IMG/VR virus record: IMGVR_UViG_3300024348_000092 | Location: 1 to 43,511 of that record | From: a virus | DNA length: 43,511 nucleotides | Direction: 5' to 3' (one strand) | In this document: positions 18,001 through 40,161 of the stretch, in pieces | How positions within the stretch are numbered: position 1 is the first letter of the stretch | Layout of the letters: the number at the start of each line of letters is the position of its first letter | The notes under the pieces: generated by a model | Databases searched by the model: none | What the model was told of the DNA's origin: nothing | What the model saw: only the letters and a program-made list of their open reading frames with translations | Made by a program: the position numbers and the translations under genes

Positions 18001-20986
18001 TTTATCAGGATATGAAATTGTTCATAATTTTGATAAAGTAAAAAATCCTATAAGAGTTATGGATCCTAATACAACCAGCATTCTTCTTCGAAATCTAACA
18101 GTTGGAACTTATAGTGTTGCAGTAAGAGTAATTAATACTCTGAATAATGTTTCTGAGCCAGTAATTATAAAAGTACACGTTAGTAATAATCATAAAGACA
18201 GAGATATTCCTAGACTAGTAGATGACGTACCGGTTGCTGGTACTACAACAGTAGGCTATACTGTTGACGGAAACACTTTTAAAGCAAAAAGATCTGGGTA
18301 TGGAATTAAGCACCCAGGAAGCGATTCTTCTTGGGTAAATAATACAAATACAACCGCTACAGCATGGCAGCAAGATTGCAGTGATTTGCCAAATATAACA
18401 TGGTCAGAAAGTGACAGAAACAGTGAAGGAGAATTCATTGTAGAACATGCTTATATACTAATGGATTTTAGTGATGCTACTGATAGATTTAAACTTTTAA
18501 AATACTACAAACCTACAGGGTCAGGTACTGCTCATTGGTATGATACAGGTACGGGTAATACTACTAATAGGTTTGGAAGTGCTTTAACTGGTACATTTAC
18601 TAAAGCAGCAGAATCTTCAAAAGTTACGGGATCAGGTACAGCATTTACTACCCAAATTGAACAAGGAGATGTTTTAAAACTCGGTAGTGAAGAAATAAGA
18701 GTTGCTGCAGTAGAGAGCAACACTGTACTATATTTAGAAGTAGCTACCGATACTGCACATAGTAGTGTTTCAGGTTTTATTCCAAATATTCGTATTGACT
18801 ACACCAATGATGTAATAATTGCTAGAGTTTATAAAACTTCTAGTGGTTTAGTGTTGGCAGAAACTTATTCACAAATTGATGCAATGCTTAAACCTGCAGG
18901 AGACTATATCGAAGCAGGTGGTGTCACTAATGACGAGATGGGCCCTGATTCTGTTGGTAATGATGAAATTGCCGATAATGCTGTGGGCGAAGATCAGATA
19001 AACGTATCTAGTGTATCTGCTATCTCAGCAAATCTTGGAAGTATTACAGCAGGTACTATGCGAAGTAATGTAACTGATTATATTCCAGATGCAAATGCTG
19101 CGCCCTCTGGGGATGAGAATGGTGCTTTTATTGATCTAACTGCAGGAAAATTTGTTTTTGGAGATGCAAATGAGTATATTCTATGGGACGGTTCAAATGT
19201 AACTATTTCTGGAGCTACTATTTCTGGAGCTTCTATTTCAGGGGGTTCTGCTGATGTAAATGCTACTATTACTGTTAAAGAAGATGGAACTACTCGACTA
19301 AGTTCTGCCGGTATACTGAACTGTACCACTGCTTTAGATGTATCAGCCTCAGGTGCTCAGGCTACTATATCTCATTCTAATATATCAAGAAGTGATGCAA
19401 CTAGTAGTGCTTCTCCTTCTGCAGGTTCAACTTTTACGGCTGTAGACAGTGTTACTACTAATTCACAAGGCCATGTAACAGGTATAAATGTTAAAACAAT
19501 TACTATGCCTGCTGGTGCAGCTGCAAATGATGCTACAATAACTTTCTCTGCCGGTACGTATTTGGGCGGTGGAGGAGCCATTACCGTAAACCAGTCGAGT
19601 AATGAAACCATAACATTTAATCATGATAACACAAGTCGCACTGATACTACTAGTTCCGCAAGTCCTGCTCATGGGAGCACGTTTACAGCAGTAGATAGTG
19701 TTACTACTAATACACAAGGACATATTACTGCTGCAAATCTTAAAACAATTACTTTGCCCGCAGAAGCTACAGTTAATAATGCTACTCTAACAATATCGGC
19801 AGGGACCGCTTTGGGAGGTGGAGGAAACTTTACAGCTAATCAATCCAGTAATGAGACTTTAACTATTAATCATGATAATATTTCTCGAAGTAATACAACG
19901 TCTACTGCAGCTCCTGGATATGGAAGTACTTTTACAGCTATAGGAGGAGTTAGTTCCAACTCTCAAGGGCATATAACAGGTGTAGAAACCAAGACAATTA
20001 CTATTCCTGCTAGTGATAACACTAATACATTTAGAACAATAAAGGTTGATACTAGTGGTAATGGCTCTGCTAATAATACTCTGACCTCCACAGAAGATTT
20101 AATGCTTAAAAAGGGCACTAATGTAACATTAGCAGAGTCTAATGGTGTTGTTACTATTTCTTCCACTAACACCACTTATACTAGTAGTGATTTTACTCAT
20201 GATGACTTAACTGGTTTTATATCAAACGAACATATAGACTGGACTGCAGATCAAGGTTCTACGAATATCCATACAGGTAACTATACTAATACTACTTATA
20301 CAGGCGGTACTAATATTAGTCTATCCGGAACAACGTTTAATCATGACGATGTATCAGGCGGTTTCGCAAGTCCTGCAGGCACACTAAGCCCTATAGGAAC
20401 GGATGGAAACGGAGATCAGACAGTAACACTATTATCTGCTGTCAGCCACGATGACGGACATATAACGGGAGCAAATACAGCAACTCTTACCTTTACCGGA
20501 CCCGTAACTGTTGATTCCCAAGGTCAATTAGATATTACAGCAAACAGTATTACTGCTAATGAGATAGCTGCAAATACTATTACAGCAAACGAAATAAATG
20601 CAAATGCTATTACAGCAAACGAAATAAATGCAAATGCTATTACAGCGAATGAGATAGCTGCTAATGCTATTACTGCCAATGAGATAGCTGCTAATGCTAT
20701 TACTGCCAATGAGATAGCTGCTAATGCTGTTACTGCCAATGAGATAGCCGCTAATGCTGTTACTGCCAATGAGATAGCTGCTAATGCTGTTACAGCAAGT
20801 GAGATAGCTGCTAATGCTGTAACAGCAAGTGAAATAAATGCTGATGCTGTTAGAGCAGAACAAATGCAAATTTCTAATAATAGTACTGGTAGTGCAGGTA
20901 TTTTTATGGACTATAATAGCGGAAATTCTAGAATAGACATACGAGATGCTTCAGCATTACGAGTACGCATTGGATACCTAGGATAA
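15023..20986 (+). CDS. Tail tip central fibre / host-specificity protein (lambda gpJ-like)
   Basis: The largest gene, 1,987 residues. The N-terminus (QTISVTDLISEGPIQGLVDG, residues about 25-45) and the first 900 residues match the gpJ tail-tip hub. A fibronectin-III-like domain follows (about 953-1045, with RISWTPPTNVG). From residue 1300 the protein is fibre-like: DEMGPDSVGNDEIADNAVG segments, three copies of an 83-residue beta repeat (about 1450-1663, marker GSTFTAV), ten copies of a decapeptide ITANEIAANA (1843-1942), and a C-terminal tip (RIDIRDASALRVRIGYLG). It should contact the receptor. Strong AGGAG lies before ATG 15023. Terminal repeats make tip exchange by recombination likely. Confidence 0.94.
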   Translation: MPAGPKGYQEYLESYNSHVGGQQRQTISVTDLISEGPIQGLVDGQASIYLNDDRAAPLSQAATSARLSKATISLTNNSTTATISDGSIVLADNGKKYLVVKKGYGSINVTATNPRVSSIDAAIHCTLTAGSSFFTTAMVSSISSILSYVPCTLVTTSDSDGEDNEGHGQGFISRRTDTTVATFTVGSGGGGGTWKPSGTYSLEVDRVIEISSISGSTVTLASAWAGTTGSYKYDVTGTIVEDVDTVTQTQVANYEALTTQFRVGTKSQEPFIDIGGHGSTSISNSPSAGGTIEQTSGYGDGTQAAKVLVGSSSAGFNLSAAQIQEVDEARFTWAYGSGHYAVSGKGNNQPTYTQYSITFEVKRPGQSSFENTDILNREVLHSGEYVNAVTFVQKIDLQQYRPFIDFKLTIKRMSNHTGPGYKSKGETYHDWQGISAASITNTTCVIKDKLSHPYCAMAKVGFTSQQFQGMPKRGYHARGLKVKVPSNYVTREENAGVSTYTRNVSTGVVTSTYQDWDGAFRRFAVYTNNPAWVFYDILTNNRYGLGDFLQEEHIDKYMLYRIARYCDELVDDGKGGTEPRFTCNLYFQKQADAYKVVKDIATVFRSMVYYFDGQVSPIIDAPSGPVYTFTKANVIDGAFSYEGTGSKTRINQCVVSWIDPDANYKASPLLVEDRKNIAETGKIISQDSVAMGAITEGQALRYGRWKLWTAANQREIVSFKSSLNSSFILPGDIINVQDADRYATRYGGRISNSGTTRSVSSIPLDSSVTLAAGSTYTLSVIFDQPGAFATETVTINGTVYAKGDLIKQAYIDSNGNGTYTLQDINTEEKAVNAKATSGGTDALILNWADTHRIETETVTTSSGTTNTITVQSAFSEVPNAEAMWVLTETTAGGSEVKGSAKQYKVLAVSQGANSEYSFTAVEHYDEKFAAVDEDFTTFVADTVYPAVRSLDTVPPVKDVRSRNTPEFAGRGGALRISWTPPTNVGEVLGTYEHLSGYEIVHNFDKVKNPIRVMDPNTTSILLRNLTVGTYSVAVRVINTLNNVSEPVIIKVHVSNNHKDRDIPRLVDDVPVAGTTTVGYTVDGNTFKAKRSGYGIKHPGSDSSWVNNTNTTATAWQQDCSDLPNITWSESDRNSEGEFIVEHAYILMDFSDATDRFKLLKYYKPTGSGTAHWYDTGTGNTTNRFGSALTGTFTKAAESSKVTGSGTAFTTQIEQGDVLKLGSEEIRVAAVESNTVLYLEVATDTAHSSVSGFIPNIRIDYTNDVIIARVYKTSSGLVLAETYSQIDAMLKPAGDYIEAGGVTNDEMGPDSVGNDEIADNAVGEDQINVSSVSAISANLGSITAGTMRSNVTDYIPDANAAPSGDENGAFIDLTAGKFVFGDANEYILWDGSNVTISGATISGASISGGSADVNATITVKEDGTTRLSSAGILNCTTALDVSASGAQATISHSNISRSDATSSASPSAGSTFTAVDSVTTNSQGHVTGINVKTITMPAGAAANDATITFSAGTYLGGGGAITVNQSSNETITFNHDNTSRTDTTSSASPAHGSTFTAVDSVTTNTQGHITAANLKTITLPAEATVNNATLTISAGTALGGGGNFTANQSSNETLTINHDNISRSNTTSTAAPGYGSTFTAIGGVSSNSQGHITGVETKTITIPASDNTNTFRTIKVDTSGNGSANNTLTSTEDLMLKKGTNVTLAESNGVVTISSTNTTYTSSDFTHDDLTGFISNEHIDWTADQGSTNIHTGNYTNTTYTGGTNISLSGTTFNHDDVSGGFASPAGTLSPIGTDGNGDQTVTLLSAVSHDDGHITGANTATLTFTGPVTVDSQGQLDITANSITANEIAANTITANEINANAITANEINANAITANEIAANAITANEIAANAITANEIAANAVTANEIAANAVTANEIAANAVTASEIAANAVTASEINADAVRAEQMQISNNSTGSAGIFMDYNSGNSRIDIRDASALRVRIGYLG
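19370..20010 (+). repeat. Three 249-bp repeats in the J fibre
   Basis: Three tandem, diverged copies of an 83-residue unit. Shared landmarks are GSTFTAV, SQGH(V/I)TG and KTIT(M/L/I)PA in each copy. Period measured between TFTAVDSV markers. Confidence 0.8.
20549..20848 (+). repeat. Ten tandem 30-bp repeats coding ITANEIAANA
   Basis: Ten back-to-back decapeptide copies, [I/V]TA[N/S]EI[A/N]A[N/D][A/T]. Several neighbouring units are nearly identical in DNA, so recent expansion or slippage is likely. They probably form a triple-stranded shaft before the fibre tip. Confidence 0.92.
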
Positions 20987-20991
20987 ATACC

Positions 20992-21060
20992 ATGAAAAAA
21001 ATAAAACTTGACATAACAACCCAAAATAGCTATAATTCTGTAATGGAGAAAATGAAATGA
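20992..21060 (+). CDS. Possible 22-residue coupling peptide containing a promoter
   Basis: ATG 20992 opens MKKIKLDITTQNSYNSVMEK..., ending in TGA that overlaps the next gene's ATG (ATGA). AGGA from the end of J lies 8 bases upstream. It may only pass ribosomes from J to the next gene. The promoter at 21008-21036 lies inside it. Confidence 0.3.
   Translation: MKKIKLDITTQNSYNSVMEKMK
21008..21036 (+). promoter_or_regulatory. Consensus sigma-70 promoter for accessory fibre genes
   Basis: TTGACA (21008-21013), 17-base spacer, TATAAT (21031-21036): a perfect match to the consensus. Transcription should start near 21043, just ahead of the GGAG (21045-21048) that serves ATG 21057, giving a leader of only about 14 bases. 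Confidence 0.85.
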
Positions 21061-23129: not shown

Positions 23130-23912
23130 ATGGCACAAACGATCAAATTAAAGCGCTCCTCTACGGAGGGCGCAATTCCTGCTACGTCCGCTTTAGCTTT
23201 AGGTGAGGTAGCCATCAATACGTATGACGGAAAGATGTACATCAAGAAAAACGATGGCTCTGACTCTGTTGTAGAAATTGGTGGAAGCTCTTCTAGTGAT
23301 ACTCTAACATCTACTCACACAACCTATGAGTATGTTGCAACGAGTAATCAAACTACTTTTTCGGGATCGGATGTGTACAGTGCCACTTTAGCATACGACA
23401 CCGGCACCCCTGCTAAAATTCAAGTCTTTTTAAATGGTATTCTACTCGACGAAGGGTCAGGTGCAGATTATACTGCAACTAATGGCACTTCGGTTGTTTT
23501 AACTACGGGTGCTACAACGGGCGATTTAGTTCAAATCTCCGCATATAAATCCTCTGCTGGCACTACAGCACTTACTATAGATACTCAGGCAAATATAAGT
23601 GGAAGTACAGCAACCACTACATCTACCTCAGTCACTACAGTAAATTCTTTTGCAGCATCGACTTTTAGATCAGCAAGATATACGGTTCAAATTACAAATT
23701 CGACAGATAGTACCTACCAGATAACAGAAATACTATTAATTCATAATGGAACAACTCCTGAAATAACTGAATATGGTTCTATACATACAGGTGCAGCAGT
23801 GGAAGCTACTTTTGATGCTGATATATCATCAGGAAGCGTAAGACTTCGTGCAACTCCTGCCTCTGGGGATACCATGGCTTTCAAAGTTGTCCGACACAGT
23901 ATCATAGTCTAA
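23130..23912 (+). CDS. Fibre/decoration protein with Mtd-type N-terminus and duplicated C-terminal domain
   Basis: A protein of 260 residues in three parts. Residues 1-52 are an Mtd-type N-terminal domain (TIKLKRSSTEGAIP, LALGEVAINTYDGKMYIK). Residues about 65-145 are a beta domain common in marine phage virion proteins (SNQTTFSGSD, IQVFLNGILLDEGSGADYTA). Residues about 165-260 (RSARYTVQITNSTDSTYQIT...GDTMAFKVV) are closely similar to the C-terminal part of the next gene. The domain order suggests a base, a spacer and an exposed head. Strong GGGAGG precedes the start. Confidence 0.7.
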   Translation: MAQTIKLKRSSTEGAIPATSALALGEVAINTYDGKMYIKKNDGSDSVVEIGGSSSSDTLTSTHTTYEYVATSNQTTFSGSDVYSATLAYDTGTPAKIQVFLNGILLDEGSGADYTATNGTSVVLTTGATTGDLVQISAYKSSAGTTALTIDTQANISGSTATTTSTSVTTVNSFAASTFRSARYTVQITNSTDSTYQITEILLIHNGTTPEITEYGSIHTGAAVEATFDADISSGSVRLRATPASGDTMAFKVVRHSIIV

Positions 23913-23924
23913 GGAGGCATAGAG

Positions 23925-24332
23925 ATGGCTAAATCAAAAGGCAGACTCCTAGCAGAACTACTTAGCTCTGATGGGACTGTAAAAAGAAGTAAAAACAAGG
24001 ATGCTGTAGCAGCTAAAGAAACCGGCACAGCTACTAGTACGAGTACCGCTCAAAAATCTATAATTACATTTGCAAAAGCAACTTATAGATCAGCAAAGTA
24101 CGTTATTCAAGTAACAAACTCTACAGACAGTACTTATCATGTTACAGAGTTATTACTTACTCATGACGGCTCAACTGCCAATATTACAGAGTATGGGACA
24201 ATATACACAGGTGCCGCAGCTGAGGCCACATTTACCGCAGATATCTCAGGAGCAAATGTGAGACTACTTGTAACGCCTGCATCTGGTGATACGATGGCCT
24301 ATAAGGTCATTCTACAGACAATAGCAGTATAA
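23925..24332 (+). CDS. Small virion protein paralogous to the preceding gene's C-terminus
   Basis: A protein of 135 residues. Residues 45-135 repeat the C-terminal domain of the previous protein: RSAKYVIQVTNSTDSTYHVT, TEYGTIYTGAA, ATPASGDTMA-like ends. The N-terminal 40 residues (KSKGRLLAELLSSDGTVKRS) replace the Mtd and spacer domains. It looks like a duplication that left the head domain as a free protein, perhaps to cap or decorate. Near-perfect AAGGAGG is 8 bases upstream, predicting strong translation. Confidence 0.7.
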   Translation: MAKSKGRLLAELLSSDGTVKRSKNKDAVAAKETGTATSTSTAQKSIITFAKATYRSAKYVIQVTNSTDSTYHVTELLLTHDGSTANITEYGTIYTGAAAEATFTADISGANVRLLVTPASGDTMAYKVILQTIAV

Positions 24333-24338
24333 ATTATA

Positions 24339-24372
24339 GAGGTATTAAAAATAATGCTTGACAAAATACCTC
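24339..24372. promoter_or_regulatory. Inverted repeat embracing the -35 box
   Basis: GAGGTATT (24339-24346) and AATACCTC (24365-24372) are perfect 8-base arms around an 18-base centre that contains the TTGACA box. Placement suggests an operator for a dimeric repressor or activator. A terminator is less likely because no T tract follows. Confidence 0.5.
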
Positions 24373-24386
24373 AAATCTCTTATACT
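24358..24386 (+). promoter_or_regulatory. Sigma-70 promoter of the Thr/Ser-fibre and tailoring unit
   Basis: TTGACA (24358-24363), 17-base spacer, TATACT (24381-24386). Expected start near 24393, about 48 bases before GTG 24441. It is the last promoter found before the terminator at 31909. Confidence 0.87.
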
Positions 24387-24440
24387 GTATCAAACAATTA
24401 AAGTTAGCTTAATAAAGCAGGCCTAGGGGAGATGTGAACC

Positions 24441-25928
24441 GTGGCAACAAATCATAATTTTAGAGTCAAAAATGGACTAGAAGTAGGTGGAGTAGAGGTT
24501 GTAAACTCTAGTGGAGTATTACAATTAGCTTCTACATTAACTTCAACCACTCAGAACAGTGGTACAAATAATACTACACTAGCTACTACGGCTTTTGTAA
24601 CTGCGGCAGTGGCAGCGATTGGTGATGGCCATATCGACTGGACAGGTGCTAGTGCAGGAACAATTCATGCCAGTAACTATACTAACACTACTTATTCAGT
24701 CGGTGACGGAGGTCTTACGACTAACGACTTCACTAATGCAGACCATAGTAAACTCAACGCTATCGAAGCTAGTGCTACAGCAGACCAAACGGATGCTGAA
24801 ATAAGAGCAGCCGTTGAAGCCGCTACAAATTCAAATGTATTTACAGATGCCGACCACTCCAAGCTTAATGCTATAGAGGCAAGTGCAACGGCTGATCAAA
24901 CGGATGCAGAAATAAGGGCAGCTGTCGAAGCAGCCAGTGACTCGAACGTATTTACTGATGCAGACCACAGCAAACTCAACGCTATTGAAGCTTCAGCCGA
25001 TGTAACCGATACTGCAAATGTTGTTGCAGCATTATCGGCAGGAACAGGTGTAGCTATATCTGGAGGTGGTGCGATTAGTGTTACAGCAGTCGCTTTAACA
25101 ACAGTACAAACCGCAGCCAATCAATCAGCTCATCTAGCTCTTACAGCTCAGGAAGGCGACATCGTAGTTCGCTCAGATGAGAATAAAACTTATTGTCATA
25201 ACGGTGGTTCAGCTGGAACCATGAACGACTACACCTTACTCGCCACCCCAACAGATGCCGTATTAAGTGTAGCTGGTAATACTGGTGCAGTAAGTGCCGC
25301 TCAAATAGCTGCAGCAGTTGAAGCTGCATCTAACTCAAATACATTCACGGATGCCGATCATTCCAAACTAGGTGCTATCGAGGCGAGTGCAACTGCAGAT
25401 CAGACAGATGCAGAGATAAGAACAGCCGTTGAAGCCGCAAGTGATTCCAATGTATTTACTGATGCAGACCATAGTAAACTCAATGCTGTCGAAGCGAATG
25501 CAGATGTTACTGACACTACTAACGTAGTAGCTGCTCTAACCGCTGGCACTAATGTAGCAATAGCGGCTAATGGTACCATTTCTTCTACAGATACTACTTA
25601 TAGTGTAGGTGATGGAGGTCTTACGACTAATGACTTCACTAATGCAGACCACAGTAAACTCAATGCTATTGAAGCCAGTGCAGATGTTACTGATACTGCC
25701 AACGTAACTTCAGCGGGTGCTTTGATGGATTCGGAATTAACAAGTATAGCTTCAGTAAAGGCTTTAAACCAAGGAGTAGCTACTGGTAACAGTCCTACTT
25801 TTGCAGCTCTTACAATTACAGGTGCAATCACATCGGCGGCTAAAGCTGTAGGAACACAAACGGTTACCGCAACAGCGCCCTCAAGTGCGACAGGTTTTCC
25901 TAATGGACACGTTTGGTATGTGGTGTAG
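24441..25928 (+). CDS. Repetitive tail fibre protein
   Basis: A protein of 495 residues from GTG 24441, supported by GGGGAG about 9 bases upstream and the absence of an ATG nearby. The start (ATNHNFRVKNGLEVGGVEV) and the HIDWTGASAGTIHASNYTNT segment are typical of marine phage fibres. Six copies of an FT(N/D)ADHSKLNAIEAS motif occur in two groups of three, within units of 37 residues (DQTDAEIRAAVEAA spacer). A short GDIVVRSDENKTYCHNGGSAG segment near residue 235 resembles a common fibre insertion. The C-terminus ends GFPNGHVWYVV. It probably forms a trimeric, partly coiled shaft. Confidence 0.78.
   Translation: MATNHNFRVKNGLEVGGVEVVNSSGVLQLASTLTSTTQNSGTNNTTLATTAFVTAAVAAIGDGHIDWTGASAGTIHASNYTNTTYSVGDGGLTTNDFTNADHSKLNAIEASATADQTDAEIRAAVEAATNSNVFTDADHSKLNAIEASATADQTDAEIRAAVEAASDSNVFTDADHSKLNAIEASADVTDTANVVAALSAGTGVAISGGGAISVTAVALTTVQTAANQSAHLALTAQEGDIVVRSDENKTYCHNGGSAGTMNDYTLLATPTDAVLSVAGNTGAVSAAQIAAAVEAASNSNTFTDADHSKLGAIEASATADQTDAEIRTAVEAASDSNVFTDADHSKLNAVEANADVTDTTNVVAALTAGTNVAIAANGTISSTDTTYSVGDGGLTTNDFTNADHSKLNAIEASADVTDTANVTSAGALMDSELTSIASVKALNQGVATGNSPTFAALTITGAITSAAKAVGTQTVTATAPSSATGFPNGHVWYVV
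24728..25690 (+). repeat. 111-bp fibre repeats in two clusters
   Basis: Six copies of the ADHSKL(N/G)A(I/V)EA coding unit, three between about 24,728 and 25,020 and three between about 25,345 and 25,690. Two copies also share the flanking DGGLTTNDFTN sequence, suggesting duplication of a whole block. Confidence 0.8.
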
Positions 25929-25931
25929 ATC

Positions 25932-28900
25932 ATGGCAACTATTAAGGTTAATGATAACGGAACGCTAAAAACGCCTTCCCAGATCTTCGTAAAAGGAGAT
26001 GCTGGTACTCTTTATTCTGCGAATTATGTAGTCGTTAACAATAACGGCACACTTGCTACTACGTGGACGGCTATTTACGAAACTTCAAGAAGTACTACTA
26101 CTTCATTCGATACCACTACTACCTTTGATACTACGACTAGTTTTGATACCACTACTACCTATAATACTAGTTATAATACGGACTCGACTACCTCGCATTC
26201 TACTACTACCTCGTTCAACACTACTAGGGCTACAAGTACTACTAAGGATACGACGACTACTTATACTACTTCATATGCTACACAAACTAGCCATAGTACT
26301 AGTCATGCTACTACAACTACTTATAATACTACTCACTCTACGACTACTACGTTCGGAACTAGCCATAGTACAACCACTACGTATGCTACAAGTAAGAGCA
26401 CTACAACTACGTACTCTACGAATCGTAATACAACCCATACTACTCTAACTTCTTATGGTACTAGTCATGTAACTTCGTATAACACTACGTTTAATACTAG
26501 TCACTCTACAACTACTACGTTTGGAACGAGTCATGCTACGACTACTACTTACGATACAACGTATAATACAACTAAGAGTACTACGACTACTTATAATACT
26601 AGTCACTCTACAACTACTACGTTCGGTACTAGTCACGCTACGACAACTAGCTATAATACTACATATAATACAACTAAGGGTACCACTACTACCTATAATA
26701 CTAGTCATACTACAAGTACTACGTTCGGAACGAGTCACTCTACGACAACTAGCTACAATACAACGTATAATACAAGTAAGAGTACTACAACTACGTTTGC
26801 TACAAGTCATGTAACTTCGTATAATACTACGTTTAATACTAGTCACTCTACAACTACTACGTTTGGAACGAGTCATAATACTACAACTTCGTATAATACT
26901 ACAACCAGTAAAAGTACTACGACCACGTTTAATACAAGTAGGACTACTTCATATAATACTACGTTTAATACTAGTCATTCTACAAGTACTACGTTTAATA
27001 CTACTCGAAGTACTACGACTACGTTTAATACAAGTCGTGGAACTAGCCATGTAACTTCGTATGACACAAGTAGGTCTACTTCTTGGACTACTACGTTTAA
27101 TACTACTCGAAGTACAAGTACTACGTTTAATACTACTCGAAGTACTACGACTACGTTTAATACAAGTCGTGGAACTAGCCATACTACTTCGTATAACACA
27201 AGTCGTGGAACTAGTCGTAATACTTCATATAATACTACTCGAAGTACTACTACATCCTATGCGACTGGAACGAGTAAGACTACTACAACTACGTTTAATA
27301 CGAGTCGTACTACAAGTCGTACTACAAGTCGTGGTACAAGTAAGAGTACAACTACTTCTTACTCTACGTTGACAAGTCGTACTACTAGTAGGACTACGAC
27401 TCCAGGCTTTAACTCATCTAACCAGTACTGGAGAACAAATAGTTCGAATCTAAATCTTGACGCACAATGGGCGGGTTCTTCTGTTTCGGTCTCCGGTTCC
27501 GGTACAACATCTGGAATTTATAGCCGACCAGCTAATGCCTCGTATACTACTATAATATTTAATGGGCCGAAAGGGGCTCCTAGGCTATACTATACTATTA
27601 GTAGATCTACTTCGTATAGTACTTCGTTCAATACTACAACGAGTAAAAGTACTACAACTTCGTATAATACTTCTTGGACTACTTCTTGGACTACTACGTT
27701 TGCTACTAGTAAAAATACTACAACTTCGTATAATACTACAACTAGTAAGAGTACTACAACTACGTTTGCTACAAGTAGGTCTACTTCTTGGACTACTACG
27801 TTTGGAACGAGCCATGTAACTTCGTATAACACTACGTTTGCTACTAGTAAAAGTACAACTACTACATATCCGACAAGTAGAAATACTACAACCACATATC
27901 CGACAAGTCGTGGAACTAGTCGTACTACTACGTTTGGAACTAGCCATACTACTTCGTATACTACTACGTTTGCTACTAGTAAAAGTACAACTACTACATA
28001 TCCGACAAGTAGAAATACTACAACCACATATGCTACAAGTCGTGGAACTAGCCGTACTACTACATATCCTACAAGTAAAAGTACAACTACGTCTTATGCT
28101 ACGGGGACAACTAAAACAACTTTGACTTCGTATAACACTACTAGAAGTACTACAACCACATATGCTACAAGTCGTGGAACTAGCCATACTACTACATATA
28201 ATACTACTCGAAGTACTACAACCACATATGCTACAAGTCATGGTACCAGCCACTCTACTACGACTTCGTATAATACTACTAGAAATACGACGACTACATA
28301 TGCTACAAGTAAGAGTACTACTACTACGTTTGCAACTAGCCATAGTACTAGTCACTCTACTACGACTTCGTATAATACTACTAGGAGCACAACTACTACG
28401 TATTCTACAAGTAAGAGTACGACCACTACGTATGCAACTAGCCATAGTACTAGCCATTCTACTACGACTTCGTATAACACTACTCGTGCTACTACGACCA
28501 CATATGCTACAAGTAGAGGTACGAGTATAACTACTACGTATGGAACTACCCATAACACTACAACTACGTATAGCACTGCGTTTAATACAAGTCACTCTAC
28601 TACGACTACGTATAACACTAGCCACTCTACTACGACTTCGTATAATACTACTAAAAGTACAACTACTACATATGCTACTACACATAGTACTACGACTTCG
28701 TATACTACTACGTATAATACTACTACTAGTCATACTACTAGTCATACTACTACTACTACTTTCGATACAACTACCACATTTGGTACGAGTAAAGCTACTA
28801 CTACATCCTATGCGACTAGTTATGTTACAACACGCAGCACCAGCAAGCTCACAGGTACTAGCAGAGCTACAAGCACTAGCCGTGCTACTGGAACGAGCAG

Positions 28901-29018
28901 GGCAACAAACACCGTTGTTTATGAACGTCTTACTGCCACAGGGGCGCAGACTGAAGTAACTAGCGGATCCGCACACAATACACGATACTGGGATGGGTCT
29001 CAGTGGGTCGAGGACTAA
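25932..29018 (+). CDS. Giant Thr/Ser-rich repeat protein (mucin-like fibre)
   Basis: A protein of 1,028 residues; I recognise no family for its repeats. Residues 1-50 are a small fibre-type domain with two NDNGTL/NNNGTL turns. Residues 51-490 and about 556-993 are built from [F/Y]-x-T-[S/T]-[H/R/K]-x-T-T-T-[T/S] decamers, often with extra YNTT-like tetrads; by eye about two thirds of the residues are Thr or Ser, acidic residues are few and Cys is absent. A non-repetitive island (491-555, with NSSNQYWRTNSSNLNLDAQW) splits the two blocks. The C-terminal 35 residues (ERLTATGAQTEV...RYWDGSQWVED) are again ordinary. It follows a fibre gene by 3 bases and precedes enzymes that could decorate its hydroxyls. 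Secretion signals are absent, so a virion fibre is most likely. Confidence 0.85.
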   Translation: MATIKVNDNGTLKTPSQIFVKGDAGTLYSANYVVVNNNGTLATTWTAIYETSRSTTTSFDTTTTFDTTTSFDTTTTYNTSYNTDSTTSHSTTTSFNTTRATSTTKDTTTTYTTSYATQTSHSTSHATTTTYNTTHSTTTTFGTSHSTTTTYATSKSTTTTYSTNRNTTHTTLTSYGTSHVTSYNTTFNTSHSTTTTFGTSHATTTTYDTTYNTTKSTTTTYNTSHSTTTTFGTSHATTTSYNTTYNTTKGTTTTYNTSHTTSTTFGTSHSTTTSYNTTYNTSKSTTTTFATSHVTSYNTTFNTSHSTTTTFGTSHNTTTSYNTTTSKSTTTTFNTSRTTSYNTTFNTSHSTSTTFNTTRSTTTTFNTSRGTSHVTSYDTSRSTSWTTTFNTTRSTSTTFNTTRSTTTTFNTSRGTSHTTSYNTSRGTSRNTSYNTTRSTTTSYATGTSKTTTTTFNTSRTTSRTTSRGTSKSTTTSYSTLTSRTTSRTTTPGFNSSNQYWRTNSSNLNLDAQWAGSSVSVSGSGTTSGIYSRPANASYTTIIFNGPKGAPRLYYTISRSTSYSTSFNTTTSKSTTTSYNTSWTTSWTTTFATSKNTTTSYNTTTSKSTTTTFATSRSTSWTTTFGTSHVTSYNTTFATSKSTTTTYPTSRNTTTTYPTSRGTSRTTTFGTSHTTSYTTTFATSKSTTTTYPTSRNTTTTYATSRGTSRTTTYPTSKSTTTSYATGTTKTTLTSYNTTRSTTTTYATSRGTSHTTTYNTTRSTTTTYATSHGTSHSTTTSYNTTRNTTTTYATSKSTTTTFATSHSTSHSTTTSYNTTRSTTTTYSTSKSTTTTYATSHSTSHSTTTSYNTTRATTTTYATSRGTSITTTYGTTHNTTTTYSTAFNTSHSTTTTYNTSHSTTTSYNTTKSTTTTYATTHSTTTSYTTTYNTTTSHTTSHTTTTTFDTTTTFGTSKATTTSYATSYVTTRSTSKLTGTSRATSTSRATGTSRATNTVVYERLTATGAQTEVTSGSAHNTRYWDGSQWVED
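26082..27401 (+). repeat. Thr/Ser repeat block 1
   Basis: Short in-frame repeats coding aromatic-x-T-S-basic-x-T-T-T-T decamers and tetrad variants. Synonymous third positions differ between copies (ACT, ACA, ACG) while the protein pattern stays. Confidence 0.9.
27597..28910 (+). repeat. Thr/Ser repeat block 2
   Basis: Second repeat block after the unique island. Early part is rich in ATSKSTTTTYPTSRN units, later part in SHSTTTSYNTTRS units, indicating separate local expansions. Confidence 0.9.
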
Positions 29019-29161
29019 TGAATTTTGAAGAATTGAATAACAAGTTAGAAACTGCTTTAGATATTATTATGGAACATTTTAGTGAGACAGAGGATAGAAT
29101 AGCAGAATTAGAGGACGAACTGGAGAGCCTTAAAAATGGCATTAAAGAAACTAGCAGATAA
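29018..29161 (+). CDS. 47-residue acidic coiled-coil protein
   Basis: A short frame starting in TAATG overlap with the Thr/Ser-rich gene and ending 26 bases inside the next gene. The product begins MNFEELNNKLETALDIIMEH and continues with heptad-like Leu/Ile positions and many Glu/Asp (RIAELEDELESLK). It is a likely small coiled coil, perhaps an assembly chaperone or trimeriser for the basic repeat fibre. Tight coupling and full coverage of the gap support it as a real gene; function is unknown. Confidence 0.65.
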   Translation: MNFEELNNKLETALDIIMEHFSETEDRIAELEDELESLKNGIKETSR

Positions 29162-30008
29162 AGATGAGCTGGGTAATCCAGTAGCACATTTTTTTAAATC
29201 AGGAAATGTACTAAGAGGCAAGGAATTTGATTCTTTGATTAAATTAAAAGAATTAATACCTACATCAAGCCCACAAGGATGCAATGTTGAATACGACATA
29301 TGGTATGATTTTTCCGAAGGCAACAAAATACATGGGTATTGTTATACTGATACGCTAACACAGTTCATATACCTTAGAGTCGCTAGTTGTAAGTACGCTA
29401 AAAAAGCTATGAAAGAAGCTGCATCCGGTCCTATTACGGAAGAAGGAGAAAGGCTTTTTAAGGAAATTGCAGATAATAGCGTAGATAAATACAGACTTAG
29501 AAAGAAAGGCATAAAGCATGACTTTGTAATTTTTCTCCCCGGCACCAACATATTAAATACTGTAGTAGATTTTGATAAAGTAGATAGAGCAGTAAAACAG
29601 GGAGCAATGTTAAAATGCCATCCTCTTACTTCTCCTCCTGCTTTTGAACATTTAAAGCATAGATGGGGAAATGCGGTAATTGACAAAAAAGTAAGTGGGC
29701 ATGAGTTACTAGAAAATGCTGCTATTGTAGGATACTGTAATAACTCTGAGATGGGCATGGTGGCGTTAGCAAAAGGTAAAACGACTTATCACTTTGGTTA
29801 TAACAATGTATGGATGACGTATACAGCTATATATAAAGCATTAGAAGTAGATGACGTACTCAGAGAGCCTAGATTTAAGGCAATTTTATCTAGTAAATAC
29901 GCGGGGTTAATACCTGCAACGATTGAGAGCCCTCAGGAACGTATAGACTCATTTTTTAAACAATATTCGGAGGTGCCTCATGTCTTGCCGAAAAATACTA
30001 ATAATTAA
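29136..30008 (+). CDS. Unknown protein, possible GT-B glycosyltransferase-like fold
   Basis: A protein of 290 residues. The C-terminal half has an order of motifs reminiscent of GT-B enzymes of the capsule synthesis (KpsC/KpsS) type: MLKCHPLTSPPAFEHL with a Lys-x-His-Pro core near residue 160, then SGHELLENAAIVGYCNNSEM and GMVALAKGKTTYHFGY near 195-230, matching the usual pattern of a His-Pro donor site followed by an n-S-x-x-g-x-x-AL-x-x-G-K loop. The N-terminal half is not recognised. GGAG precedes ATG 29136. Being between a Thr/Ser-rich fibre and a second possible glycosyltransferase supports a role in decorating the fibre, but similarity is weak and an unrelated role is possible. Confidence 0.45.
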   Translation: MALKKLADKDELGNPVAHFFKSGNVLRGKEFDSLIKLKELIPTSSPQGCNVEYDIWYDFSEGNKIHGYCYTDTLTQFIYLRVASCKYAKKAMKEAASGPITEEGERLFKEIADNSVDKYRLRKKGIKHDFVIFLPGTNILNTVVDFDKVDRAVKQGAMLKCHPLTSPPAFEHLKHRWGNAVIDKKVSGHELLENAAIVGYCNNSEMGMVALAKGKTTYHFGYNNVWMTYTAIYKALEVDDVLREPRFKAILSSKYAGLIPATIESPQERIDSFFKQYSEVPHVLPKNTNN

Positions 30009-30702
30009 ATGTAATAACTTAGAGGCATTAACTATAAATAGTATAAACAAAAATATGCCAGGATGGCAATATAAAGTAGTTCCTTTTAAGGATGGGTATA
30101 TACCAACAGCTTTAAATAATACTAATGAATTAACCTTGTGTGTACGAAGCGGAGTAATACTTAACATACAAGAAGGAGATATGCCAGGACCAGAGTTATT
30201 AGATGATTATCATATTGCTATTAGTCGTGAAGGAGTATTTACTGACAACAAGAGACAAAAACATATCTATGGATTAATAGGTAAAGATAAAATTACTAAA
30301 AAAGCTATAGATTTATCAGTATTTTTAATTAATCCAAGTAGGTGGGATGTGGTCCCTCTTTCAGATCAAGGAGTTTTAGGGCAAGTAAGAAGGCTTCGTA
30401 TGCCTAGATTTATGAACCATAAGTCCGATCCTATAGTTGCTAAATCTATAAGTGGATATGTTGCTTTAGATTATGGATTATTAAGCTGTCAAGCCTCAAT
30501 TCATAACTATATTCCTGTATTTTTAAAAGGAGAGGCGAATGGTAATGAGATGCTATCTTATGCACTTGAACTAGCACTCCCTTTACTAGACGGATTACCG
30601 GAAAAAGAACGATTAAAAGTTGAAGCAGTTGCTTCAAAAACACACAAAAGAATGGCAAAACTAAGAAACGGTCTAGCAGAATGCTTACCTTTAAGGCCAT
30701 AG
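29980..30702 (+). CDS. Unknown protein, possible GT-A-like fold without DxD
   Basis: A protein of 240 residues. The N-terminus (RKILIIKCNNLEALTINSI) and a following strand (LTLCVRSGVIL, about residues 51-61) resemble the opening of a GT-A sugar-nucleotide fold, where the latter strand normally reads like LFLDSDVIL; here Arg-Ser-Gly replaces the Asp-x-Asp metal site. A later AIDLSVFLINPSRWD (about 110-124) resembles the acceptor-side GVFLIN-x-x-RW motif of such enzymes. If the match is right, this is a metal-independent or inactive member. GGAGG lies 7 bases upstream of ATG 29980, inside the preceding gene. Confidence 0.4.
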   Translation: MSCRKILIIKCNNLEALTINSINKNMPGWQYKVVPFKDGYIPTALNNTNELTLCVRSGVILNIQEGDMPGPELLDDYHIAISREGVFTDNKRQKHIYGLIGKDKITKKAIDLSVFLINPSRWDVVPLSDQGVLGQVRRLRMPRFMNHKSDPIVAKSISGYVALDYGLLSCQASIHNYIPVFLKGEANGNEMLSYALELALPLLDGLPEKERLKVEAVASKTHKRMAKLRNGLAECLPLRP

Positions 30703-30714
30703 GAGAGCGAAAAA

Positions 30715-31902
30715 ATGAACGTACTCATTATTGGGTATCATCAGCAATTTTTTTATCAAGCCAAGCTACTGGCAGATGCTGGTCATAATGTCTATATAGC
30801 TACGGGGACAGGAACAGGCTCTTTAGATGAGTACTCTGTTTCTATAGGGGCAGTAGGAGTAGTAAAAGAACCTTTACCTGCTGTGGATTGGACTGTAGAT
30901 AACTGTACTTGGATTACGGATGCAATTACTGCGCATTCAATAACTCATGTAATTAATGGTCTTCCATGGGTTGCTTTTATAGAAAGTATAATACCTGAAG
31001 ATGTTGTATATTTAGGGCCTAATGTAGCTGCTGCCGAGCTAGAGACTAATAAGTTTGCTACAAGGGCTGCTATTAGTGCCTTAGGATTACGTACGTCTCC
31101 TGTTTTATTAGAAGGTTCCAGTGCTAATATTGCTGCAGATTTAACGTCTTGTACAGAACGACCTATAGTGGTAAAGCCTAAAACTGTTTTCCAAAACGCT
31201 ATTATTCTTCAGGCGGGTGAAGAGGCCACACTGACGTCTCGACTAGGTGAAGAAGATGCGTACGACTATTACTTTGAACGTTTTATTCCTAATATGGTTA
31301 CAGAAGCCTGTGTCTATTTTGTTATCGCTAATGGGCAGTGGGCTATTAGCTCTACATGGGCTCTAGGTGGAGAAGCTACGACCAAGGGAGTTGTATTGCC
31401 TGTAACTTCTTGGATGGGGCATACTACTTCTGATACTTTAAGTAGTGATGATGACACGGCAGTCAGGGCCTTTGCAGCTACATTCCTAGATATGGCTAAA
31501 ACGAAGGGAGGAAACTATGAGGGAGAACTTTATGTAGGGATTGATAATGCTGGACTTGTCCATTGGATTGAGTACTCTAGTAGACCTTCTTCTCCCAATG
31601 TAGCACCTGTTTTCTGTTCTGCTGCGGAGTATATACAATCTCTAACTTCTGACCCAAGTATTATTGCATCAGCTTGGCCGTCTGATTTTAAATTCACCGA
31701 TCTTGTTGCATCTGAGGCACTGGGTTCTGTATACCCCTACGATCTACATGCAACTCATAGTGTTCCAATACCTGTAGGACTAACTAAAAGAGGTTCAACT
31801 TATTTATTAGAACATGGAGGTTTACGATTATTTTCTGAAGGTGATTTACCCAGTGAGTTTGTTACTGCTATTAATGCATCTGGAACTTGTACAATCTCAT
31901 AA
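30715..31902 (+). CDS. ATP-grasp ligase, PurD-like
   Basis: A protein of 395 residues. The N-terminal Rossmann-like start (MNVLIIGYHQQFFYQAKLL) and YLGPNVAAAELETNKFATRA (about 102-121) match the opening and B-domain entry of PurD-type ATP-grasp enzymes; PIVVKPKT carries the ATP-binding Lys; EGELYVGIDNAGLVHWIEYSSR (quoted in part: WIEYSSRP) supplies the metal-binding Glu and Asn/Ser region. Such enzymes join a carboxylate to an amine using ATP. Phages carrying PurD itself for purine synthesis are known, but here it lies alone in a fibre operon and differs at the end. It may build or attach an amide-linked group. GGAG precedes the start, and a terminator follows the stop. Confidence 0.65.
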   Translation: MNVLIIGYHQQFFYQAKLLADAGHNVYIATGTGTGSLDEYSVSIGAVGVVKEPLPAVDWTVDNCTWITDAITAHSITHVINGLPWVAFIESIIPEDVVYLGPNVAAAELETNKFATRAAISALGLRTSPVLLEGSSANIAADLTSCTERPIVVKPKTVFQNAIILQAGEEATLTSRLGEEDAYDYYFERFIPNMVTEACVYFVIANGQWAISSTWALGGEATTKGVVLPVTSWMGHTTSDTLSSDDDTAVRAFAATFLDMAKTKGGNYEGELYVGIDNAGLVHWIEYSSRPSSPNVAPVFCSAAEYIQSLTSDPSIIASAWPSDFKFTDLVASEALGSVYPYDLHATHSVPIPVGLTKRGSTYLLEHGGLRLFSEGDLPSEFVTAINASGTCTIS

Positions 31903-31908
31903 TAATAA

Positions 31909-31932
31909 AAAAGGGACTTTACAGTCCCTTTT
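31909..31932. terminator. Bidirectional terminator between structural and replication modules
   Basis: Stem AAAAGGGACT / AGTCCCTTTT with a TTAC loop. T runs follow on both strands (TTTTC on plus, TTTTTT on minus). It ends the rightward fibre/tailoring unit and the leftward replication unit, whose last stop is at 31940. Confidence 0.93.
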
Positions 31933-31939
31933 CATTTTA

Positions 31940-39100: not shown

Positions 39101-39729
39101 CCTACATTGAACTCCGCGTCTAGCAACTCGTCGTCATTGTCCTGTCCTGCGTTGCGAACTCGATCAAGAAGCTCTTTCTGTGCATCAGCAGTAGGGCGAG
39201 GCATAACATCGTCCATAGACTTAAGGTCTGCAACAAGACCTAACTCTTCGTCTGTCAGAGCACGTGGCTTACACTTCAATGCTTGTAGTTGATACTCAAC
39301 ATTGTAAGGGAGCGGGCCTGTCTTAACTCTTTTAAAACAGATATCCCAGCCAGTTGTTTGGTTAGTAGGATCTCCAAGATCTTCTGCGGCAGTAATTACT
39401 TGCTCCCACAACTTCTTCTTAAGATTTGCTACTTTAACTTTGCCGTCGGCAGGGTCAATAACTTGAACAGCGTAGCTCCAGCCACACTTAAGATCTGGGA
39501 AGTATTCACGAACCCAATCTTTTTCTGCGTTATTAAACTTCTCTGCGTTACGGTCGAATGACAAGCACTCCAAAGGAATGTTCTTGCCGTTTTCACCTTC
39601 AATCCAGTAAACGTAACGAGCAAGGATATCGCCTACGATGCGCATCTTGTTATCGCCGTCTTTGTATGTGAAAGTATTAATTGATGATTTCTGGGCTCCG
39701 CCAGTTTGCTTATTAAATGATAATGCCAT
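39097..39729 (-). CDS. Putative single-stranded DNA-binding protein
   Basis: A protein of 210 residues resembling proteins annotated as SSB in marine phages. It has a short basic start, a beta-rich middle compatible with an OB fold (KMRIVGDILARYVYWIEG, PLECLSFDR, KCGWSYAVQVID), GWDICFKRVKTGPLPYNVEY and an acidic C-terminus (NDDELLDAEFNVG) as in SSBs that recruit partners through their tails. Its place among polymerase and recombination genes fits. No motif is diagnostic by itself. AGGAG precedes ATG 39729, which also overlaps the previous stop as TAATG. Confidence 0.65.
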   Translation of the reverse strand: MALSFNKQTGGAQKSSINTFTYKDGDNKMRIVGDILARYVYWIEGENGKNIPLECLSFDRNAEKFNNAEKDWVREYFPDLKCGWSYAVQVIDPADGKVKVANLKKKLWEQVITAAEDLGDPTNQTTGWDICFKRVKTGPLPYNVEYQLQALKCKPRALTDEELGLVADLKSMDDVMPRPTADAQKELLDRVRNAGQDNDDELLDAEFNVG

Positions 39730-40130
39730 TAGTGTATATTCTCCTGTGTGACTTCTTCATATAGAAAGTGAATATTCTCGCCTTCTAATGTAAGTAGCCT
39801 ATTTTCTGTGATAGTTTCTAGAGGTACTGGTAAATGCAGTAAATCTAGTGTAAGTTTTTTTGACACCATGTACTCTGCTAGGCTTCGGAGTGAAGCTAAT
39901 GCATAGTACACCGAGATGTCGCGGCTTGAGTACTTATAAGAATTGAGCAAAAGAACATCTGGGTGTATTAAAAAATTATTACCCACGAAACTCATTTGCG
40001 AATACGAATAGATGGGGTCATATCTATTATTTGGAATTTTTCTCTTTATGAGCATTTCCATTATCAAATTACAATTTGAAATATTACCCTCTGCCGTATC
40101 GTAAACCTTTTTCCAATCAAATAAGAACAA
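39729..40130 (-). CDS. Conserved-looking unknown protein with TTG start
   Basis: A protein of 133 residues starting at TTG 40130: AAGGAG lies 8 bases upstream, and the first in-frame ATG would lose FDWKKVYDTAEGN. Predicted mixed alpha/beta with HPDVLLLNSYKY and a Leu-rich helix (LASLRSLAEYMV). I recall similar short proteins in marine phage replication modules but no function. A perfect sigma-70 promoter (40133-40161) overlaps its ribosome binding site. Confidence 0.65.
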   Translation of the reverse strand: MFLFDWKKVYDTAEGNISNCNLIMEMLIKRKIPNNRYDPIYSYSQMSFVGNNFLIHPDVLLLNSYKYSSRDISVYYALASLRSLAEYMVSKKLTLDLLHLPVPLETITENRLLTLEGENIHFLYEEVTQENIH

Positions 40131-40132
40131 CT

Positions 40133-40161
40133 ATTATACTCCTTTTTAAGAATTTTGTCAA
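40133..40161 (-). promoter_or_regulatory. Consensus sigma-70 promoter for the recombination/nucleotide unit
   Basis: On the minus strand TTGACA (40161-40156), 17-base spacer, TATAAT (40138-40133). Expected start near 40126, a few bases inside the 133-residue gene; the AAGGAG of that gene lies in the spacer. Transcripts from here should therefore serve SSB and the genes after it. Confidence 0.75.

Follow-up and report, generated by a model that had tools for sequence, protein, structure and literature searches.

The virus record IMGVR_UViG_3300024348_000092 from IMG/VR was analysed over its full 43,511 nucleotides, hereafter the window. This 43.5-kb record carries a siphovirus-type head and tail gene set with a portal, a head protease, a tape measure and lambda-type tail-tip genes. 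Our subject is a cluster of plus-strand genes near positions 24,358 to 31,933, which a first-pass annotation had read as a mucin-like fibre, rich in threonine and serine (Thr/Ser), made together with its own decorating enzymes. Checking the open reading frames (ORFs) showed that the cluster is real: the genes for the fibre, the Thr/Ser-repeat protein, the small coiled coil and the proteins starting at 29136, 29980 and 30715 lie where that annotation had put them, and they do overlap their neighbours or sit 3-12 base pairs (bp) apart. We refer to the 29136 and 29980 proteins as E1 and E2. The features are listed below (aa, amino acids; E, expectation value; GT, glycosyltransferase; CMP, cytidine monophosphate; Kdo, 3-deoxy-D-manno-oct-2-ulosonic acid).

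24358..24386, plus strand: sigma-70-like promoter match TTGACA-17-TATACT, ~55 bp 5′ of the fibre gene, 11/12 match
24441..25928, plus strand: tail fibre protein, 495 aa (phrog_21412 tail fibre, E = 3.6e-60)
25932..29018, plus strand: putative Thr/Ser hairpin fibre protein, 1,028 aa, whole gene, 59% Thr+Ser
25932..26087, plus strand: conserved N-terminal domain of that protein, ~52 aa, from homologue alignment; probable attachment end
26088..27401, plus strand: outgoing Thr/Ser arm, 438 aa
27402..27593, plus strand: central non-Thr/Ser tip, 64 aa; probable distal end
27594..28922, plus strand: return arm, Thr/Ser-rich, 443 aa; mirror complement of the outgoing arm
28923..29018, plus strand: conserved C-terminal motif ERLTATG..TEVTSGSAHN.RYWDGSQW, from homologue alignment
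29018..29161, plus strand: small coiled coil of 47 aa, whose ORF starts on the Thr/Ser gene's stop codon
29136..30008, plus strand: E1, predicted GT-B-like glycosyltransferase akin to CMP-Kdo transferases, 290 aa (AlphaFold2, Foldseek, (K/R)XHP motif)
29980..30702, plus strand: E2, predicted GT-A-fold protein without a DXD motif, 240 aa (AlphaFold2, Foldseek)
30715..31902, plus strand: putative ATP-grasp ligase, accessory, 395 aa (weak D-Ala-D-Ala ligase/PurD matches)
31908..31933, no strand assigned: probable bidirectional terminator, a stem-loop (10-11 bp stem) that separates convergent genes

The Thr/Ser protein, 1,028 residues long, is a member of a large, unnamed phage family. Its Thr/Ser content and its repeats, which go far beyond chance, agree with the first-pass description. 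Homologues range from 168 to 2,084 aa and share the termini seen in the window (N-terminus IKvwdG..eP..i.VK..., C-terminus ER.TaTG..TEV.S..AhN.RYWDGsqW). In nearly all of them a tip of variable sequence, 7 to ~250 aa long, is central, and the residues in the N-arm and C-arm of individual proteins number 64/67, 85/86, 111/112, 183/185, 326/323, 416/416, 438/443 (the window), 504/509 and 629/630. Across 31 non-redundant proteins the two arm lengths correlate at 0.9975, and the mean |N-C|/(N+C) is 0.017 compared with 0.5 for a randomly placed tip. Proteins with an arm ratio above 1.5 were treated as tip-detection failures and left out of these statistics, which excluded L089, L093 and L095, homologues in which the detector had misplaced the tip. 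Searches of Pfam, PHROGs and the PDB sequences with the Thr/Ser protein gave no meaningful match, and tblastn against isolated phages gave none, probably because low-complexity filtering hid the arms. A hidden Markov model for the termini overlooked many genuine family members, presumably owing to their biased composition, so ORFs were read directly instead, and the Thr/Ser proteins of isolated phages were located by reading the neighbourhoods of E1.

The arms follow a strict spacing rule. With bulky residues defined as F, Y, W, H, R or K and each arm read outward from the tip, the gap between successive bulky residues was 4 or 6 in 2,251 of 2,629 cases, and even gaps made up 94.7% of all gaps, the pattern that residues on a single face of a beta strand would give. 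Where this face is not bulky it is 94% Thr (position +2 from a bulky residue is Thr in 98-100% of the 4- and 6-residue gaps), and the opposite face is made up of Thr, Ser, Ala, Asn and Gly. Counted from the tip, 4s and 6s follow one another in the same order on both arms: for the window protein the gap strings scored 82 in mirror order against 45 in direct order and at most 53 in shuffles, and the mirror score lay above all of a protein's own shuffles in 18 of the 31 non-redundant proteins. Mirror alignment of the window arms extended over 436 residues with zero indels and placed bulky opposite bulky at 89 of 91 places, with an aromatic opposite a basic residue in every one of 89 pairs. Across the family, 1,060 of 1,095 pairs were aromatic-basic at the best register compared with 24-70% at other even registers, and a separate mirror alignment gave 999 of 1,012. 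In a distant podovirus homologue of 814 residues, a blind scan for the mirror centre settled on residue 414, about which 40 of 40 pairs were complementary. Among isolated phages, the Thr/Ser arms of DLP_6 gave 36/38 aromatic-basic pairs and the KVP40 protein 9/9, the register of the latter being weakly determined because its arms are evenly spaced. Short homologues carry little or no register signal.

A reversed amino-acid pattern cannot be obtained by duplicating or inverting DNA, so that selection for antiparallel pairing is its simplest cause. On this sequence pattern the Thr/Ser arms appear to be an encoded antiparallel beta zipper, that is, a hairpin fibre. The window arms hold 91 basic and 8 acidic residues; it is our speculation that acidic sugars would balance the basic charge. 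The Thr/Ser gene also contains an antisense 463-aa open frame (27585-28976, minus strand), which is probably a side effect of biased codons.

The hints of glycosyltransferase folds that the first-pass annotation had seen in the two proteins 3′ of the coiled coil were borne out by AlphaFold2 models and their Foldseek matches. The E1 model (predicted local distance difference test score, pLDDT, 87.1; predicted template modelling score 0.86) has the GT-B-type fold of the retaining beta-Kdo transferase group, and its top three PDB matches are the Kdo transferases WbbB (GT99), KrkA (GT140) and KpsC (GT107), with E = 1.1e-4, 1.2e-4 and 3.5e-3, respectively, and template modelling (TM) scores of 0.33-0.44. 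Like these enzymes E1 carries the CMP-binding motif (K/R)XHP, which is common to sialyltransferases and retaining Kdo transferases (PMC12887879). Its residues K160, H162 and P163 do not vary among 39 E1 sequences, and the proteins of KVP40, DLP_6 and Lullwater have them too. All homologues conserve S204 and E205 completely or almost completely; the pair lies where the downstream Ser/Thr motif might be expected, although the GT52/GT80 alignment is too weak for an assignment. The GT-B sialyltransferase-like families GT52, GT80 and GT38 have (K/R)XHP in common with E1; they show no overall sequence similarity to it, and no GT52/GT80 structure was among the top matches listed. Weak, independent Pfam matches of E1 homologues point the same way as the fold, being to GT52 (E = 5e-4, one divergent homologue) and Capsule_synth (6e-3), each in single or few homologues. 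We conclude that E1, by its predicted fold and donor motif, is a CMP-ulosonate-transferase-like enzyme.

The E2 model (pLDDT 94.6) has the GT-A, or nucleotide-diphospho-sugar transferase, fold. Foldseek returned mostly GT-A enzymes from both structure libraries, including UGGT, LH3, LARGE1, GT8 and GT34, with E-values from 4.6e-4 in the PDB and from 3.2e-6 among named viral GTs. Its best viral structure match is a 250-aa protein (TM 0.70), the same length as the partner of E1 in Stenotrophomonas phage DLP_6.

Relatives of E1 were found in 38 IMG/VR loci, and an E2 profile brought in 80 loci. E1 stands with E2 in 72 of 72 distinct loci, and a small ORF like the 47-aa coiled coil occupies the same place in 67 of them. 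In most loci the coiled coil separates E1 from a Thr/Ser gene lying 85-160 bp further 5′. Upstream sequence sufficed for a count in 57 distinct loci, 49 of which have a Thr/Ser gene at most 3 kb away (45 by strict composition, with L062, L065, L093 and L095 added by profile). The remaining eight are one podovirus lineage in which coil-E1-E2 adjoins the terminase genes; three of these eight records, the longest-covered, have a Thr/Ser gene elsewhere, and the others are partial. L004, L005, L006 and L038 also have a similar fibre gene ahead of the Thr/Ser gene. Two Thr/Ser hairpin paralogues flank E1-E2, one on each side, in L015, L028, L032 and L040 (for example L028:8917-9840 and L028:11632-12444), and a conserved pair of ~119-aa and ~192-aa proteins lies 3′ of E2 in L004, L005, L062, L063 and many marine siphovirus-like loci.

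In each isolated-phage lineage examined that has E1, namely KVP40, DLP_6 and the Caulobacter phages, there is a Thr/Ser repeat protein as well. Co-occurrence with such proteins in other phages, whose absence would have told against the first-pass annotation, spans marine siphoviruses and podoviruses, KVP40, DLP_6, and Caulobacter phage Lullwater and its relatives. The hosts of KVP40, DLP_6, Lullwater, Quill_5.2 and BL199 are all Gram-negative. The E1 families phrog_26179 and phrog_30602 include function-unknown proteins of KVP40 and Lullwater. In KVP40 the order is the Thr/Ser protein KVP40.0254 (197 aa), a coiled coil (0255), E1 (0256) and a small protein (0257), and in the Caulobacter phages Lullwater, Quill_5.2 and BL199 the Thr/Ser protein is directly 5′ of E1. 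DLP_6 groups the coil, E1 and the 250-aa partner, with the Thr/Ser arms elsewhere, as the C-terminal half of an annotated baseplate wedge protein. That protein, AAY80_265 (L122:3408-7274), has a ~130-aa non-repeat domain inside its N-terminal Thr/Ser arm, and its arms are again of similar length when both sides are counted. The genes 3′ of E1 in KVP40 (KVP40.0257, L050:8644-9276) and DLP_6 (AAY80_003, L048:2696-3448) show no evident similarity to E2 and might encode an analogous second enzyme.

The ATP-grasp label for the 30715 protein is tentative and comes from weak matches of residues 96-190 to D-Ala-D-Ala ligase and PurD (E 0.0045-0.06); a Pfam search gave no hit. Its proposed membership of the cassette fell away, as no relatives were found in 84,980 prokaryote genomes and the gene's only relative is an identical contig from a single sample. 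We conclude that this gene is a local extra, outside the conserved cassette.

From these results we propose that the Thr/Ser chain would run from its conserved N-terminal domain through the outgoing arm, turn at the central tip and come back through a return arm of equal length. Along their full length the arms would form an antiparallel beta ribbon, either inside a single chain or from one chain to its neighbour in an oligomer, and both conserved ends would therefore lie on the virion with the variable tip distal and in possible contact with the host. A fully extended 438-residue arm would reach ~145 nm. On their predicted folds, E1 would be a CMP-Kdo/sialic-acid-type enzyme with a GT-B fold and E2 an enzyme of the GT-A type, and the gene linkage makes glycosylation of the Thr/Ser fibre by E1 and E2 likely. 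The enzymes may attach sugar to the Thr/Ser hydroxyls before the fibre leaves the host cytoplasm; an acidic ulosonic acid from the host CMP-sugar pool, Kdo for instance, is the likeliest sugar, with E2 possibly extending or priming it and the small coiled coil perhaps recruiting the enzymes or serving as an assembly factor. Maf flagellin glycosyltransferases are a work-alike of this reaction, in which a CMP-ulosonic acid donates to Ser/Thr of a surface filament protein; they put nonulosonic acids on flagellin, and Kdo if the native donor is absent (PMC11339370). Hosts that make lipopolysaccharide supply CMP-Kdo, and with a bacterial Maf enzyme able to put Kdo on flagellin Ser/Thr the proposed reaction is plausible. 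No sequence or fold relationship was found between the Maf enzymes and E1 or E2. We favour, with reasonable confidence, the interpretation that a hairpin fibre is the product of the cassette and that the cassette's enzymes probably add sugar to it. We are evenly divided on the fuller proposal of an undescribed fibre architecture, in which a single chain extends outward and doubles back on itself in an antiparallel beta zipper (50 to >900 residues per arm), an aromatic-basic code pairs its arms, a variable tip contacts the receptor, and a dedicated CMP-sugar transferase coats the threonine rows with acidic ulosonic acid.

Several points weigh against the decorated hairpin. The hairpin is read from a sequence pattern, from which we infer the beta pairing; the marine homologue L047 has no mirror signal, and in the Caulobacter Thr/Ser proteins the Thr pattern is present and a clear pairing register was not found. 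The sole direct hint of a hairpin on a virion is the baseplate wedge fusion in DLP_6. For the enzyme models, TM-scores to known PDB enzymes are modest, at most 0.46. An E1 profile matched KpsC among PDB sequences at E = 0.06, and a larger, later profile had zero matches, so the KpsC match counts only together with the fold result. QXXXD, the defining nucleophile motif of retaining Kdo transferases (PMC12887879, PMC9587256), was not found in E1, where the strand before HP reads FLPGTN with no conserved Gln-X3-Asp; E1 was accordingly not filed in GT99, GT107 or GT140, from which it also differs in being shorter and in its unusual N-terminal half. The DXD metal/donor motif was not found in E2, the equivalent strand ending in (K/R)SG or similar in homologues. 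Either protein could be inactive or use other chemistry.

The lack of both motifs would suit a role of E1 and E2 as glycosyltransferase folds without catalysis that serve as chaperones, and in-register folding of a 400-residue beta hairpin plausibly needs help. We consider this improbable, as the donor-site residues K-X-H-P, S204 and E205 vary little or not at all, isolated phages included, which suggests that CMP-sugar binding has been kept. It is also unlikely, if deserving of some weight, that the hairpin fibre is real and E1 and E2 are mere neighbours that modify another target, such as another virion protein or host surface sugars. Gene linkage is what ties the enzymes to the fibre, and the podovirus lineage keeps coil-E1-E2 by its terminase genes, apart from the Thr/Ser gene; yet that gene is present in the three longest-covered records of the lineage, and E1 recurs with a Thr/Ser protein among differing neighbours in unrelated phages (KVP40, DLP_6, Caulobacter and marine).

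The pairing itself might take another form. Tail fibres are commonly trimers, and mirror complementarity requires only that N-arm and C-arm pair antiparallel at equal height, as they would if the N-arm of one subunit met the C-arm of the next, for example in a trimer, to give an interlaced beta prism. An intrachain hairpin, by contrast, suits the tight turns (VTKGSY in KVP40.0254, for example) and the short tips of the LGGKGGG kind; pairing between chains is a possibility that we hold to be rather doubtful, and both arrangements may occur. A disordered mucin-like domain, in which Thr/Ser richness merely offers many O-glycosylation sites, would account for the 59% Thr+Ser and the adjoining glycosyltransferase-like genes. 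That richness is the part of the first-pass term that survives. Disorder without long-range pairing does not: equal arms, mirror-complementary 4/6 spacing and aromatic-basic complementarity have no reason in a disordered chain, and 94% of the non-bulky positions of one face are Thr rather than Ser. We regard such a domain as very improbable. Ice binding by flat Thr rows, which resemble the TxT faces of antifreeze proteins, was also considered and was set aside as no evidence supported it.

The decorated hairpin can be set beside known systems. The triple beta-spiral and beta-helix of phage and adenovirus fibres are long, repetitive and beta-rich and run one way from base to tip, whereas the Thr/Ser chain would go out and back under a residue-by-residue complementarity code. 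Virion glycosylation in mycobacteriophages concerns other hosts and, as far as is known, other enzyme and acceptor types. There too a phage structural protein is the proposed target of phage-encoded glycosyltransferases, as inferred for the Maravista capsid (PMC11256854). Phage glycosyltransferases that decorate a virion protein are therefore of a known kind, and what would be new is the complementary hairpin fibre architecture, novelty having been checked against Pfam, PHROGs, the PDB and open-access papers, the last of which gave nothing relevant on Thr-rich hairpin fibres. If the proposal is right, the second half of the protein would be largely predictable from the first by a simple complementarity rule, closer to nucleic-acid strand pairing than to ordinary protein folding. 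Few readable rules for long-range beta pairing would be as simple, and this one would be useful for fibre design; it also poses the evolutionary question of how arms separated by hundreds of residues keep growing to the same length. It would also describe a route by which phages of Gram-negative bacteria could coat their fibres with a host-type sugar, and it offers a candidate function for PHROGs families listed as unknown, including genes of the long-studied phage KVP40.

The boundaries of the cluster fared unevenly. The probable terminator was borne out as a stem between convergent genes. The consensus promoter is indeed the best match of its region, but 11/12 matches are not rare (2 observed on the plus strand of the window compared with ~1.4 expected) and a single such site is not above chance. 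Perfect TTGACA-17-TATAAT matches occur twice in the window, at 21008-21036 (plus strand), just 5′ of the gene at 21057, and at ~40133-40161 (minus strand), just 5′ of the minus-strand gene 39729-40130. Upstream of the cluster, two small fibre genes (23130-23912 and 23925-24332) share a common domain, with mutual homologue matches at E ~1e-36, and appear to be a tandem duplication. About ten copies of a 30-bp tandem repeat lie at 20548-20857, near the end of the gene for a 1,987-aa tail protein.

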